From Actinomyces sp. oral taxon 170 str. F0386 (GTDB taxonomy: Bacteria > Actinomycetota > Actinomycetes > Actinomycetales > Actinomycetaceae), in contig NZ_GL882573.1 of NCBI RefSeq assembly GCF_000195595.1, positions 166,983 through 230,982 of the forward strand: a stretch of 64,000 nt of DNA, read 5' to 3'. Positions 21,062-42,377 of this stretch are shown in pieces. The notes under the pieces were generated by a model, which was not told the DNA's origin, made no database searches, and was given only the letters and a program-made list of their open reading frames with translations. The position numbers and the translations under genes are program-made. Each line of letters begins with the position of its first letter. The first letter of the stretch is position 1.

Positions 21062-21205
21062 GGGTAGGAGTCGGCTGCGGGCTGCGTCTTTGCGTCCTCG
21101 AGTTCTTGCCTCACTCTTCGGTTTTTGAACCTCCGGAGTAGCTTGCGATCCGTAAGGTGTGGTCGTGAGAGCCGGATATGTCGTTGTGGCTGCGTGACCT
21201 GTGCT

Positions 21206-21380
21206 CACATCCGGCTACCTGGGCTGGTGACGATTGAGCTCTGCTCAACACGAGTAGCGTCTTTCTTGGTGCTGGCCAGGGTGTCCACCTCACGTGGATC
21301 GGTGCCATCTGACCTCACCTAATTCCAGCAACCATCACGCAGCCTGGAAGCATGTACCGGTAGGGCAGTGGGAAGCTGCT
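21206..21380. repeat. Degenerate direct repeat, copy A of the tRNA-Lys flank
   Basis: It begins CCGGCTACCTGGGCTGG and later reads ACGTGGATCGGTGCCA...CACCTAATTCCAGCAACCATCACGCA. The same order of blocks occurs at 25128-25330 beside the intact tRNA-Lys. Copy A is interrupted after 21380 by about 410 bp containing the HTH remnant and resumes at 21790-21871. It marks the far end of an integrated or duplicated segment. Confidence 0.6.
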
Positions 21381-21526
21381 TTTGGCCTGCTCTAGGCGCC
21401 CCACTTCCTATGCTCACCGTGGTCCACGGATCTCGCGGGCAGTCCCACCTGAGGTACCGAGCCGCCCTTGGCGGGCATCCTTGATGCGACTCGTCGGTCG
21501 GTGGGCACTGCTCCGCCATAATGGTG

Positions 21527-21558
21527 GGGAGTCACCCCGGTGCAACCGGGTGACTCCC
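21527..21558. promoter_or_regulatory. Operator-like inverted repeat over the start of the HTH remnant
   Basis: GGGAGTCACCC and GGGTGACTCCC are perfect 11-base arms around a 10-base centre. They surround the GTG start of the interrupted HTH gene, as an autoregulatory phage-repressor operator would. Confidence 0.45.
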
Positions 21559-21770
21559 ATGATAAACAAACAGCTCAGCTGAACCAGCTGCTCTTCGAGC
21601 ATCGAATGACGTGTAAGGACCTGGCTGACCAGTTCGGTGTCACGCGATCTGTTATCAGCCGCAAGCTCCGTGGTTAGGTCAGCTGGACCGCTGAAGAGCT
21701 CTCCATCATGACCACGCTGTTCTGCCGTAAGGTGGATGACTTCGCTCCGATCTGCAGCGGTGGAGAATGA
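21540..21770 (+). pseudogene. Small XRE-like HTH gene with in-frame TAG
   Basis: From GTG 21540 one frame encodes ...QLNQLLFEHRMTCKDLADQF then GVTRSVISRKLRG, a clear Cro/XRE-type HTH. TAG 21675-21677 interrupts it, and the same frame continues as VSWTAEELSIMTTLF up to TGA 21768-21770. That continuation is the expected end of the domain in phage-type small regulators, so a nonsense mutation in a 76-codon gene is the best reading. It lies in the accessory region beside an att-like repeat. Confidence 0.6.
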
Positions 21771-21791
21771 GCGCCGGCTGAGTGGCGTCCA

Positions 21792-21871
21792 GCCATGAAG
21801 AAGGTCTCGGCCCATACCGGGGCCGAGGCCGGTGTGGTACCCCTGTGGGGCTCGAACCCACGACCTTCGGA
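21792..21871. repeat. tRNA-Lys 3'-part fragment, att-like site
   Basis: 21838-21871 repeats, with one base deleted, the T arm, variable loop and acceptor end of tRNA-Lys(UUU) at 25365-25399. The match continues upstream (GGGGCCGAGGCCGGTG) into the tRNA flank. Partial tRNA 3' copies of this type are the usual scar of tRNA-targeting integrases. The element would occupy about 21.9-25.36 kb. Confidence 0.65.
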
Positions 21872-22196
21872 GTAGCAGAGGGCGGCGCCGGCCATCGGCA
21901 CATAGTCGCAGCACACCGCAGTACCTCTATCCCGGAAACCGCACGGAGAGCCGAGGGTCCGAGCAGCCAGCACCACCACGGTTCCAGAGCTGGCGCACGC
22001 CAGCAGAACTCAGGAGAAAACACCATCACGACCACCTCGCATCTCGCCGCAGGAATTCTTGTCGTAGGTCACAGGGATAATTCGGGACGGGTAGGAGGGC
22101 ACCAGCCCGGGCGCCCTCCCACCCCGGCCAGACGACGTACCACCGCCACCCGGCCACCAGGACCAGCAGAAACCACCTACCGGCCCCACCAGGGCA

Positions 22197-24331: not shown

Positions 24332-25042
24332 ATGAGTTCAAAGCCCAACAATGAAATCGGATATGCAATATTTGGGTGCCAAATGTTTCTGTATACTGGC
24401 ATCTTGACTATAGGGTTTGGTGGGATGGATTTTTCCACCGGAGAGTCCTCTGTGTCGGATGGTGCGATTGCGGGCTGTGCTTTCGTGTTGGGGATTGTTG
24501 GTGCCCTTGTTGGCTGGGTGGTCGGTTCTCATATTGCCCAGTCCTCTGGGGTGAGGGGTAAGCGGGTAGGGTTCTGGCTCGGGTTGTTTATTCCTCTTCA
24601 GGCATTCTTTTTCGTCTTGGTGTACGCCGCGATCGTTTCTGTTGTGGTGGCAATCATCTCCATTTTTATGCCAAGCGTATGGAGTTATCAGCGAGTTGTC
24701 ATTCTGTTAGGTGTGTGGGTTGTGTCGATCTTGGTTTCGGTTTTTACGGTGACTGACGATGGTCAAGAATCTGTTGGTCTCGGAGGAGGTGGTCGCAGTC
24801 TACATGTGAGGAAAAGTAGCGATGAGGTATCGTCTCGTGTTCCTGGTTCTGCTTCAGGTGGGGTGGTGTATCGAACGACGGATAGCATTCTTGGCGGGAC
24901 GACGACTCGTGGTTCTGACGGGACGGTGTACCGCACCACGGAGAGTATCTTTGGCGGGACGACGACTCGTGGTTCTGACGGGACGGTATACCGCACGACA
25001 CCAAATCTCTTTGGTGATGGAACAACCACCCGCAGTCAGTGA
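24332..25042 (+). CDS. Small membrane protein with C-terminal 20-residue repeats
   Basis: A 236-residue protein. Four hydrophobic helices occupy about residues 8-30, 44-70, 82-112 and 118-146. A cytosolic or surface tail follows with nearly exact tandem units of GTVYRTTESIFGGTTTRGSD (2.5-3 copies, about residues 176-236). The units alternate DSILGG, ESIFGG and PNLFGD. The coding DNA is AT-rich with GTT/TCT codons, unlike the neighbours, so it looks acquired. GGGGAGGA lies upstream of ATG 24332. Function unknown; repeat tails of this sort often tolerate copy-number change. Confidence 0.72.
   Translation: MSSKPNNEIGYAIFGCQMFLYTGILTIGFGGMDFSTGESSVSDGAIAGCAFVLGIVGALVGWVVGSHIAQSSGVRGKRVGFWLGLFIPLQAFFFVLVYAAIVSVVVAIISIFMPSVWSYQRVVILLGVWVVSILVSVFTVTDDGQESVGLGGGGRSLHVRKSSDEVSSRVPGSASGGVVYRTTDSILGGTTTRGSDGTVYRTTESIFGGTTTRGSDGTVYRTTPNLFGDGTTTRSQ
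24893..25012. repeat. Two 60-bp in-frame tandem repeat units
   Basis: GGCGGGACGACGACTCGTGG... is repeated at 24893-24952 and 24953-25012 with few changes (GTGTACCGCACCACG versus GTATACCGCACGACA). A third, partial unit precedes them. They encode the 20-residue protein repeats. Confidence 0.85.
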
Positions 25043-25127
25043 ATGAAATGCCGGTGGGTTCCAGTGTTTTTGGGTGTTTCATGTTTTTGGGTTCTGGGTT
25101 AGATTTTTTTGCGGAATGATCTGAAGG

Positions 25128-25405
25128 CACTTCCGGCTACCTGGGCTGGCGCCGATCGAATCCGGCTCGACATGAATGCCTTCATCCCTTCCCCGATGGC
25201 TGGAGCGTCCATCCACGTGGATCGGTGCCACCTGAGTTCACCTGATTCCAGCAGCCATCACGCAACCCGAAACCATGTGCCGGCAGGGTGGCGGGAGGGC
25301 GCTGCTGCCTGCATCCCGGACAGGAAGAAGGCTCCGGTCCCTGGTGGGGCCGAGGCCGGTGCGGTACCCCCTGTGGGGCTCGAACCCACGACCTTCGGAT
25401 TAAAA
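25128..25405. repeat. Degenerate direct repeat, copy B, next to tRNA-Lys
   Basis: Copy B keeps CCGGCTACCTGGGCTGG, CCACGTGGATCGGTGCCA, the CAGCAGCCATCACGCA block and GGGGCCGAGGCCGGTGCGGTACC, in the same order as copy A at 21206-21871. It runs into the 3' part of the intact tRNA gene. Confidence 0.6.
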
Positions 25406-25438
25406 GTCCGCAGCTCTGACCAACTGAGCTAAGGGGGC
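25365..25438 (-). tRNA. tRNA-Lys (anticodon UUU)
   Basis: The minus strand folds as a full cloverleaf. The acceptor is GCCCCCU paired with AGGGGGU, and the D arm is GCUC...GAGC. The anticodon stem GCGGA/UCCGA holds loop CUUUUAA. The T arm is GUGGG-UUCGAGC-CCCAC and the discriminator is A. CCA is not encoded. The pair at position 1:72 is G-U. It is the target of the att-like duplication. Confidence 0.95.
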
Positions 25439-26397: not shown

Positions 26398-26517
26398 TGT
26401 CCAAATCGGTGACAAAGGCCCGAGGCAAGCGTGCGTCGACGGAACAAAGCCGCATGATTCCGCGGTTCTTCCAGTGGCTTGATCGGGTCGCAGGCTCCTT
26501 TGTGACCGATTTGGACA
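26398..26517 (+). repeat. 120-bp palindromic element, copy 1
   Basis: Terminal arms TGTCCAAATCGGTGACAAAG / CTTTGTGACCGATTTGGACA pair with one mismatch. The central core CCGCATGATTCCGCGGTTCT is at element positions 53-72. It aligns without gaps to copies at 37288, 41163 and 42258. It lies 34 bp after the hypothetical gene and about 290 bp before ppk. Confidence 0.85.
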
Positions 26518-37287: not shown

Positions 37288-37407
37288 TGTCCAAATCTGC
37301 GGCAAAGGAGTTCGAAGCCTCTCGTCTCGCACAAAAGAACCGCGGAATCATGCGGTTTCCTTGTGACGTTGCGCGTTCGATCGGGGCCTTTGCTGCAGAT
37401 TTGGACA
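37288..37407 (-). repeat. 120-bp palindromic element, copy 2 (inverted relative to copy 1)
   Basis: Arms TGTCCAAATCTGCGGCAAAG and CTTTGCTGCAGATTTGGACA pair with one mismatch. Five central arm bases differ from copy 1, but they differ on both sides, preserving pairing. Read on the minus strand the core is CCGCATGATTCCGCGGTTCT at positions 53-72, as in copy 1. It lies 30 bp before the nitrobindin-like gene. Confidence 0.85.
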
Positions 37408-41162: not shown

Positions 41163-41282
41163 TGTCCATGGAGCGGACATTAAGCCACCGACATCGTCGG
41201 GTTGAGTTGTGAAACCGCATGATTCTGCGGTTCTCCGGATCAAGTATCCAGCCCGAACCGGTTCATGTCCGCGCTGTGGACA
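41163..41282 (+). repeat. 120-bp palindromic element, copy 3 (flanks nuclease gene)
   Basis: Ends TGTCCATGGAGCGGACAT / ATGTCCGCGCTGTGGACA, each end itself carrying TGTCC-N7-GGACA. The core CCGCATGATTCTGCGGTTCT is at positions 53-72, same orientation as copy 1. It sits 87 bp upstream of the DUF559-type gene and defines a second sub-type together with copy 4. Confidence 0.85.
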
Positions 41283-41369
41283 CCGACCTCGCTGAGAATG
41301 CCGGCGGCTAACGGTTGTTATCCACAGGTGTCTCCGCTCTTCTGGTGCCCTTCTCCGTACCGGCCCAAC

Positions 41370-42254
41370 ATGTTGGTCATGGACACCAGCGCATTGCTCA
41401 CCCGTATCAGCGATACGCATGGTGCGGCCCGTCAGGTGGATCTTCAACTGGAGCGTTCGGAACGTCGTCGTCTTCAAGCGCTTGTGGACTCCGGCCGCCT
41501 CAGGCGATATCCGCATGGTGTGGTGGCCCTGCCCGACGTCGACAAGAGAGTGCTGATCGCCCGCGTTCATCGGGGACTGATCACGTGTGAGCACGCGGCT
41601 GCGTACTACCGGCTGCCGCTGCCATCGTCGCCGAAGACTCTTCATGTCCTCACACCGCGGGGGCACAAGGCGGCGCCGTTATGGGGTGAGCATCAGCATG
41701 AGACTCGGGATCTTCCGTCCTTGTCCTTGAGCTCCTTCCCCGTTGTTCCCCTGGCACGTTGTCTCGCTGATCTTCTGTGCTGCGCCCAGGAATGGACTGC
41801 CTTGGTAGCGGTTGATGCCGCCCTCCATCAGGGCCGGGTCACGTACGAGCAGGTCGGTGCCTACTTGCGTGGATCGCGCCGGGTGCTGGGGCGCCGGCGC
41901 CTGCAACGGACGAGCAGCCGAGCGCGCAGCCCGCTGGAGACGTTGGCGCGTGTCCAGCTGCGGGGTGCCGGTCTCGACGTGGTTGACGGAGTGGAGATCG
42001 GTGGTGTCGGTGAGGTGGATCTTCTGGTTGCAGGATGGCTCGTCGTCGAGCTCGACGGCTACGAGTACCACTCAGACATGTGGGCCTTCGACCATGACCG
42101 TTCCCGTGACCGGGAGCTGGCGCGGCTGGGGTACACCTCCATCCGGTTCACGGCGAACAACGTGCGTTCGGGCAGGATCGTCGACGAGGTCAGGCGGGTC
42201 CTCGCCGCTCATCCGGGCGCGGCAAGAGCGAGGATGGCGTCTCGCAGCGCATGA
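41370..42254 (+). CDS. DUF559-type PD-(D/E)XK nuclease-like protein (AbiEi-like N-terminus)
   Basis: A 294-residue protein. The N-terminus (about 1-60) is a winged-helix AbiEi-antitoxin-like module (LQALVDSGRLRRYPHGVVAL). The C-terminal DUF559/Vsr-like endonuclease fold starts near residue 185. Possible catalytic residues are Glu190 (SPLETL), Asp217 (GEVDLL), and Glu227-x-Asp229 (VELDGYEYH). Such proteins are common in actinobacteria with no settled role. The gene is bracketed by inverted copies of the 120-bp element, 87 bp before its start and 3 bp after its stop. The start could also be ATG 41379; the frame is open into copy 3 but without coding character. Confidence 0.82.
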   Translation: MLVMDTSALLTRISDTHGAARQVDLQLERSERRRLQALVDSGRLRRYPHGVVALPDVDKRVLIARVHRGLITCEHAAAYYRLPLPSSPKTLHVLTPRGHKAAPLWGEHQHETRDLPSLSLSSFPVVPLARCLADLLCCAQEWTALVAVDAALHQGRVTYEQVGAYLRGSRRVLGRRRLQRTSSRARSPLETLARVQLRGAGLDVVDGVEIGGVGEVDLLVAGWLVVELDGYEYHSDMWAFDHDRSRDRELARLGYTSIRFTANNVRSGRIVDEVRRVLAAHPGAARARMASRSA

Positions 42255-42257
42255 GAA

Positions 42258-42377
42258 TGTCCACACAGCGGACATGAAAACCGTTGAGGAAGAGATTCGT
42301 GCGAGAGAACCTCGGAATTCTGCGGATTTCCAATTGGGGCTCAGGCTGAGACCGCGTTCATGTCCGCGCGGTGGTCA
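42258..42377 (-). repeat. 120-bp palindromic element, copy 4 (inverted relative to copy 3)
   Basis: Ends TGTCCACACAGCGGACAT / ATGTCCGCGCGGTGGTCA, with the last GGACA altered to GGTCA. On the minus strand the core is CCGCAGAATTCCGAGGTTCT at positions 53-72 (three differences from the others). It starts three bases after the nuclease gene stop. Confidence 0.8.

Follow-up and report, generated by a model that had tools for sequence, protein, structure and literature searches.

What is a nuclease gene doing between two copies of a palindrome? The window, as we call the whole 64,000-nucleotide stretch of DNA analysed, holds a DUF559 gene with one 120-bp palindromic element 87 bp before its start and another 3 bp after its stop (Table 1), an arrangement that the earlier note had described and that proves accurate. 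The two copies, 3 and 4, lie in opposite orientation: with the element model R1 they score 56.6 bits (copy 3, - strand) and 54.3 bits (copy 4, + strand) on the strands opposite to those tabulated. The finer anatomy needs some correction. TGTCC-N7-GGACA, reported at both ends of each copy, is present except at the distal end of copy 4, which reads TGTCC-N7-GGTCA, one mismatch. The shared core exists, but instead of element positions 53-72 it occupies 51-70, as AACCGC-N8-GCGGTT, and its centre at 60.5 is exactly mid-element. The gene is of the DUF559 type as proposed (Pfam, 30.2 bits against a cut-off of 20.6), and its frame is open from 41265, ahead of the ATG. The observation is more general than a single locus: we are dealing with a repeat family that recurrently brackets DUF559 nuclease genes.

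Elsewhere in the window, direct repeats at 21184-21894 and 25106-25438, 3.5-3.9 kb apart, look like an integration scar or a duplication; within one of them is a 55-bp copy of the tRNA that lies at 25365-25438. At 24850-24969 a 60-bp unit occurs twice in tandem, the two being 78% alike.

Table 1. Features of the locus and of the two solo element copies in the window (window coordinates)
Feature	Position	Strand	Evidence or remark
Element copy 1, 120 bp, type-1 arms, solo	26398..26517	+	site filled in 9/9 close genomes compared
Element copy 2, 120 bp, type-1 arms, solo	37288..37407	-	site filled in 7/9 close genomes compared
Element copy 3, 120 bp, type-2 arms	41163..41282	+	model R1, 87.7 bits on +; alignment
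Copy 3, left 21-bp arm	41163..41183	+	pairs with 41262-41282; arm covariation
Copy 3, central core AACCGC-N8-GCGGTT, element positions 51-70	41213..41232	+	alignment
Copy 3, right 21-bp arm	41262..41282	-	arm covariation
DUF559 gene, 294 aa: AbiEi-like part and EDxHD/Vsr-like nuclease domain (predicted)	41370..42254	+	
AbiEi-like part, about residues 1-180, boundary approximate	41370..41909	+	PADLOC AbiEi; Foldseek 6y8q
Nuclease domain, about residues 186-282, boundary approximate	41925..42215	+	E190 E215 D217 E227 D229 H234 D243 R246
Element copy 4, 120 bp, type-2 arms, opposite orientation	42258..42377	-	model R1, 87.4 bits on -
Copy 4, central core	42308..42327	-	alignment

Plan and copies of the element

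All elements follow one plan: two inverted 21-bp arms, the central core and two variable spacers. At least 25 copies were found in the own genome, a lower bound in that 150 of 1522 first-look candidates were scored and one further match, at E 0.5, was excluded. Sorted by eye, 17 copies have type-1 arms (TGTCCAAATCGGTGACAAAGG and variants) and 8 have type-2 arms (TGTCCACACAGCGGACATGAA and variants). The motif TGTCC-N7-GGACA is not significant by itself: there are 6 matches with at most one mismatch where a mean of 3.02 is expected, and 11 of 100 shuffles do as well. Aligning 15 copies, which give 14 distinct rows, shows pairing in 93.1% of the arm and core cells; 14 pairs are altered on both sides, with 49 such cells against 17.5 in shuffles.

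Across 88 distinct elements of the own and related genomes, drawn from 150 of 215 matches in 86 loci of our choosing, the length is exactly 120 bp in 81, 121 in 6 and 119 in 1. Arms agree at 19.4 of 21 positions within one element and at 15.3 of 21 between different elements. The spacers of most own copies are unrelated (mean identity 34%); two unlinked copies, C14:103120 and C35:123696, have spacers 79% identical. As the length is nearly constant and the spacers are free, it seems to matter how the three sites are spaced on the DNA. A second short repeat, with GGGGACA-like and TGTCCCC ends, lies at or beside some element sites (L217 and L225 in genome G039, L224 in G018 and L035 in the own genome).

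Brackets and arm classes

Within the genus, the element is matched at E 0.1 in 46 of 49 genomes and the protein has a homologue at E 1e-10 in 41 of 49. Bracketing was scored by a pair test that is independent of the element model: a palindrome is required on each side of the gene, with arms matching one another, at a score of 29 or more, a threshold chosen after the control had been viewed. Of 105 homologous matches 90 were examined, 15 weak, partial or unfetched ones being left out. In 46 of the 90 homologues a matched-arm palindrome stands on both sides. The other 44 fall below the threshold, as do all 1448 control positions taken in the window. Two of the passing loci, L120 (low complexity) and L172, look spurious. 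A control with mismatched partners, which passed 16 to 93 of 1500 depending on the threshold, was set aside because partners can share an arm class, and window positions were used in its place. Model R1 itself matches at 27 of 30 fetched homologue loci (E up to 0.1).

The same link is seen starting from the elements. Pairs that start 0.9 to 1.5 kb apart in the own genome, G039 and G018 bracket a DUF559 gene in six cases out of six. The earlier note had named genome-wide copies with no link to the gene as evidence against its proposal of an undescribed cassette. Copies are genome-wide, yet both own-genome pairs about 1.1 kb apart enclose a DUF559 gene, and the bracketing of homologues elsewhere supports the proposal. 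A third own DUF559 protein (379-aa ORF; L200, C50:37130-37309) has no visible bracketing elements. In the type-1 cassettes L116, L117, L118, L103, L105 and L111, the downstream element begins about 45 bp before the nuclease stop codon, and therefore would encode the C-terminus of the protein.

Arm class goes largely with nuclease clade in a maximum-likelihood tree of the 90 proteins. Even within the own genome, the protein at this locus has type-2 brackets and its 45% identical paralogue on contig C28 has type-1 brackets. Arm GGNNNGGTTTGAGGATTGCT gives 36, 22, 27 and 38 hits in G006, G008, G016 and G042, and at most one in any of the remaining 45; the four proteins that it brackets in these genomes form a clade with 100/100 support and no further member among the 90. 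Counted in bases between the arm bounds used, the 24 distinct elements of this class measure 120 in 4 cases, 128 in 2, 129 in 15 and 130 in 3. A 19-protein clade provides an internal negative, as 18 of its members have no matched pair and its sole hit, L172, is the one that looks spurious.

In the TTTGAGGATTGCT class, copies stand beside their cognate enzyme gene; for type-1 arms the correspondence is less strict. By a loose arm pattern the best element is of type 1 in 17 of 29 other genomes, and six of the 17 (G004, G009, G017, G023, G035 and G042) contribute none of the 14 members of the type-1 clade in the set of 90. When nine genomes were searched with a profile, G004, G009 and G047 gave only weak or partial protein matches. 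Type-2-like elements are carried by G027, whose protein belongs to the bracket-free clade, and by G043, which has a fragment only. In 13 genomes arm GGGACGACTTTGAATC is hit 1 to 9 times per genome, often with a mismatch. The class link between arms and nuclease is not strict. In genomes with elements and no cognate protein the gene may have been lost, a diverged one may be in use, or the tie between class and nuclease may be loose.

The pairing extends, as far as sequence can tell, to Cellulomonas and other actinobacteria. From a scan of named genomes 80 loci were retained; 41 of these are in Actinomyces, and the 39 outside it include loci of Cellulomonas, Pengzhenrongella, Paenarthrobacter and Luteimicrobium. 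Of the 39, 24 were compared with controls: 8 score at least 31.5, a level attained by 0 of 555 window positions and by 1 of 552 mismatched partners. The remaining 15 all stayed below 29. Cellulomonas sp. PhB150 has 22 arm hits (0 with the reversed pattern as control), and its nine distinct elements measure 82 bases in 7 cases and 83 in 2 between bounds. Two other Cellulomonas genomes gave no arm hits. The comparisons as a whole make the association of AbiEi-like/EDxHD nucleases with class-specific palindromes of nearly fixed length a well-supported one.

The enzyme and the systems it resembles

The protein is predicted to consist of an AbiEi-like DNA-binding part followed by a nuclease that resembles homing endonucleases and whose active site is invariant. 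Apart from DUF559, Pfam gives MTES_1575 at 35 bits, under its cut-off of 38.2, and a weak EutK_C. PADLOC models of AbiEi match residues 3-101 (1.2e-06) and 32-180 (1.2e-04). In Foldseek searches with the AlphaFold2 model (mean pLDDT 89.7), the front part matches the AbiEi antitoxin 6y8q (E 3.1e-05, the sole match under 0.001), followed by 1zel (E 3.4e-03). The back part more weakly matches the catalytic domain of I-Bth0305I (3r3p; E 3.0e-03, TM 0.76 by target) and 3hrl (E 0.021). Residues E190, E215 and D217 are invariant in all 90 homologues, and so are E227, D229, H234, D243 and R246 wherever they are covered (83 homologues). We take EDxHD to be the motif name for this nuclease domain, and 3r3p is presumably an EDxHD endonuclease. 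In both fold and conserved residues the predicted domain is EDxHD/Vsr-like, as in EDxHD homing endonucleases. EDxHD is a name in use for endonucleases (PMC6083498, in part). Binding of the element arms by the front part is plausible by analogy, because AbiEi-family antitoxins bind inverted repeats in their promoters (PMC7319586, in part).

The three neighbouring genes scanned encode a D-Tyr-tRNA deacylase (Tyr_Deacylase), a DUF3995 protein and a PLP enzyme (PALP); among them there is no AbiEii toxin by Pfam and no PADLOC hit at 0.01. NCBIfam gave no hit for the protein, a sequence search of the PDB gave nothing convincing (best E 0.12) and a search of phages gave no homologue at 1e-5. One plasmid record, from Actinomyces oris, matches it.

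The likeness to REP/RAYT that the earlier note had remarked upon concerns the organisation and not the enzyme. In REPIN/RAYT systems, dispersed palindromic repeats fall into sequence classes, each tied to a distinct adjoining gene (PMC3116915 and PMC8049555, both in part), and here also a hairpin-forming pair of inverted repeats is multicopy and dispersed. RAYT, however, is an HUH Y1 protein, whereas ours is a DUF559/EDxHD nuclease with an AbiEi-like part; its Pfam and Foldseek matches are not RAYT-like, and no HUH protein is among the Foldseek matches listed. Because the enzyme is of another kind, we do not count the pairing as a member of REPIN/RAYT. The element also differs: its length hardly departs from 120 bp, and a third conserved site lies at its middle.

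EDxHD homing endonucleases such as I-Bth0305I share the fold of the nuclease domain, and the alternation of element-gene-element with a solo element resembles that of occupied and vacant homing sites. Unlike them, the present system has many palindromic sites per genome and an AbiEi-like part in front, and homing is here a proposal. AbiEi antitoxins (6y8q; Rv2827c, 1zel) resemble the front part in sequence and fold, and AbiEi binds inverted repeats, but here that part is joined to a nuclease and the neighbours are not AbiEii. MITEs and Correia-type elements are 100-150 bp long with terminal inverted repeats, and in size range and ends our element is like them. It is unlike them in that its copies bracket a nuclease gene, its centre is conserved and there is no target duplication.

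Occupied and vacant sites, and a proposed explanation

The left neighbour gene of the locus was found in 14 of the 49 genomes, 12 of them strongly; these 12 were compared, and the weak G019 and G043 left out. Element-gene-element is present in G000, G039 and G018. In G021 and G035 the gene is inverted between elements with arms CACAGAAATGACATTGG, and both nuclease genes contain an in-frame TAG. A solo element, by eye orthologous to copy 3 and with both arms altered alike, occupies the site in G040 and G022. In G014 a single end is left, element and gene are both lacking from G001, G020 and G045, and in G023 the site runs on into other sequence. At a second locus, element-gene-element is found in G039, G020, G001, G022, G023 and G045, and one element between the same flanks in G000, G040 and G014. 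On its left this solo element has a flank continuing that of the first copy, and on its right a flank continuing that of the second. No element is present there in G018. At two loci, then, the gene lies in a site that is vacant in relatives, solo versus element-gene-element, with both flanks kept. Empty sites in close relatives, which the earlier note had proposed as a check, are found both with a solo element and without any.

The sites of solo copies 1 and 2 (c1 and c2) tell of change in place. The two exceptions at c2 are G039, where the element is missing, and G014, where it is replaced; about 1.6 kb with ArsR-like and SRPBCC-like ORFs (named by eye; L209:12408-14065) takes its place in the latter. 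At c1 and c2, respectively, identity is 0.90 and 0.87 for the arms, 0.95 and 0.94 for the cores, 0.66 and 0.73 for the spacers, 0.67 and 0.70 for the right flanks, and 0.92 and 0.82 for the left flanks, that of c1 being partly inside an ORF. By eye, G022 has at c1 new matching arms and a new left half within conserved flanks, and in G021 the left half resembles the one in G020 and G040 and is joined to a right half resembling the one in G039. We interpret these half-element patterns as sequence exchanged among copies, possibly beginning at the core.

Signs of insertion are wanting among the copies studied. None of the 25 own copies has an abutting direct repeat of 3-10 bases, and within 6 bp of them there is no direct repeat of 5 or more bases; the composite-transposon layout, also raised in the earlier note, is unsupported. 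Nor was a clean gain of a new site found among the 11 own copies unmatched in the G039 stretches (joined flanks were traced in G039 and G018). For eight of them G018 has an element with matched flanks on one or both sides; these copies, being filled in G018, look like losses in G039. The other three are C8c, C35b and C31; C31 is absent in both G039 and G018, which have other sequence there, and is not a precise insertion.

We put at about one half the probability that gene and brackets form a cognate nuclease-palindrome system, REPIN/RAYT-like in organisation, with an unrelated enzyme, and probably maintained by break-and-copy. Its weight is lowered because type-1 arms mismatch the nuclease clade in six genomes. 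The front part of the protein would bind the paired arms, and the nuclease would cut or nick inside the element, perhaps at the core. Repair of the break by copying from another element copy would homogenise the arms and exchange half-elements between sites, and it could carry an element-gene-element unit into a solo-element site in the fashion of a homing endonuclease. If flanking copies crossed over, a direct pair would be reduced to a solo element and an inverted pair would turn the gene around. What we infer here are the binding and cleavage, the mobility, and the way in which copies reach new sites. Such a homing-like cycle appears to fit best the site states and the exchange between copies, with transposition as its main rival. 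A bolder proposal, held tentatively and with somewhat less than an even chance, is that AbiEi-EDxHD nucleases are new selfish or domesticated replicators, each driving its own palindrome population through actinobacterial chromosomes by cut-and-copy. The palindromes would be both vacant homing sites and concertedly evolving repeats.

Transposition could mean a REPIN-like non-autonomous element, for which the nuclease serves as transposase in trans and whole palindromes move, perhaps as single-stranded hairpins. Dispersed multicopy palindromes, a cognate gene bracketed by copies, and the dispersed copies in one Cellulomonas genome all agree with it. The common spacers of C14:103120 and C35:123696 agree as well but are equally explicable by gene conversion, and most spacers are unrelated. 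As neither a target duplication nor a clean new insertion was seen in the own copies, we regard this as possible though unlikely. A MITE of an unrelated insertion sequence, bracketing a hitch-hiking nuclease gene by chance, would also be short with terminal inverted repeats, but no target duplication is seen. Chance hardly accounts for bracketing that recurs at one protein family, for an arm class that tracks its phylogeny, or for a centre conserved at fixed spacing, and we give this account a very small probability.

Alternatively, an AbiEi-like repressor could use the elements as operators to control its own gene and distant promoters, with mobility incidental. This would suit the inverted repeats bound by AbiEi-family antitoxins in their own promoters (PMC7319586, in part), the element upstream of the gene, and the better conservation in place of arms and core than of spacers. 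It does not explain the invariant nuclease site. A second element after the stop codon, a near-exact 120-bp length with a third conserved site mid-element, and the alternation of solo and element-gene-element states also count against a regulon, which we think improbable. Least probable of all are transcribed structures, such as terminators or processing sites, flanking the gene. The copy-3 stretch does fold better than shuffles (z -4.42 on the + strand; -1.98, -3.13 and -2.86 in three other stretches), but no Rfam family matches at the elements. In the 88 elements selection on one transcribed strand leaves no clear sign, because mismatches of the G-T kind (46) do not clearly outnumber those of the A-C kind (33), the two numbers being similar. 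Arm classes that follow the nuclease would also be left unexplained.

We therefore return to the cognate nuclease-palindrome system and to its place among known ones. To our knowledge, palindromic repeats are common in bacteria and few have a known partner enzyme, which in the literature covered is the RAYT transposase. Such a nuclease-palindrome pairing was found neither in the open-licence PMC literature searched nor among the families tested. Among open-licence PMC papers, DUF559 with AbiEi, or with transposon and inverted repeat, gave nothing, and DUF559 with palindromic gave only papers that look off topic. The part of PMC3733652 covered never names Actinomyces, Cellulomonas or Actinobacteria. 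The nuclease-palindrome link rests on sequence, and it suggests an undescribed partnership of enzyme and repeat in bacterial chromosomes. If true, a second, unrelated class of enzyme would have its own repeat classes, and such partnerships would have arisen more than once. Nucleases annotated only as DUF559 would gain a role, and their matched sets of enzyme and site would offer natural material for testing how repeats persist in genomes.
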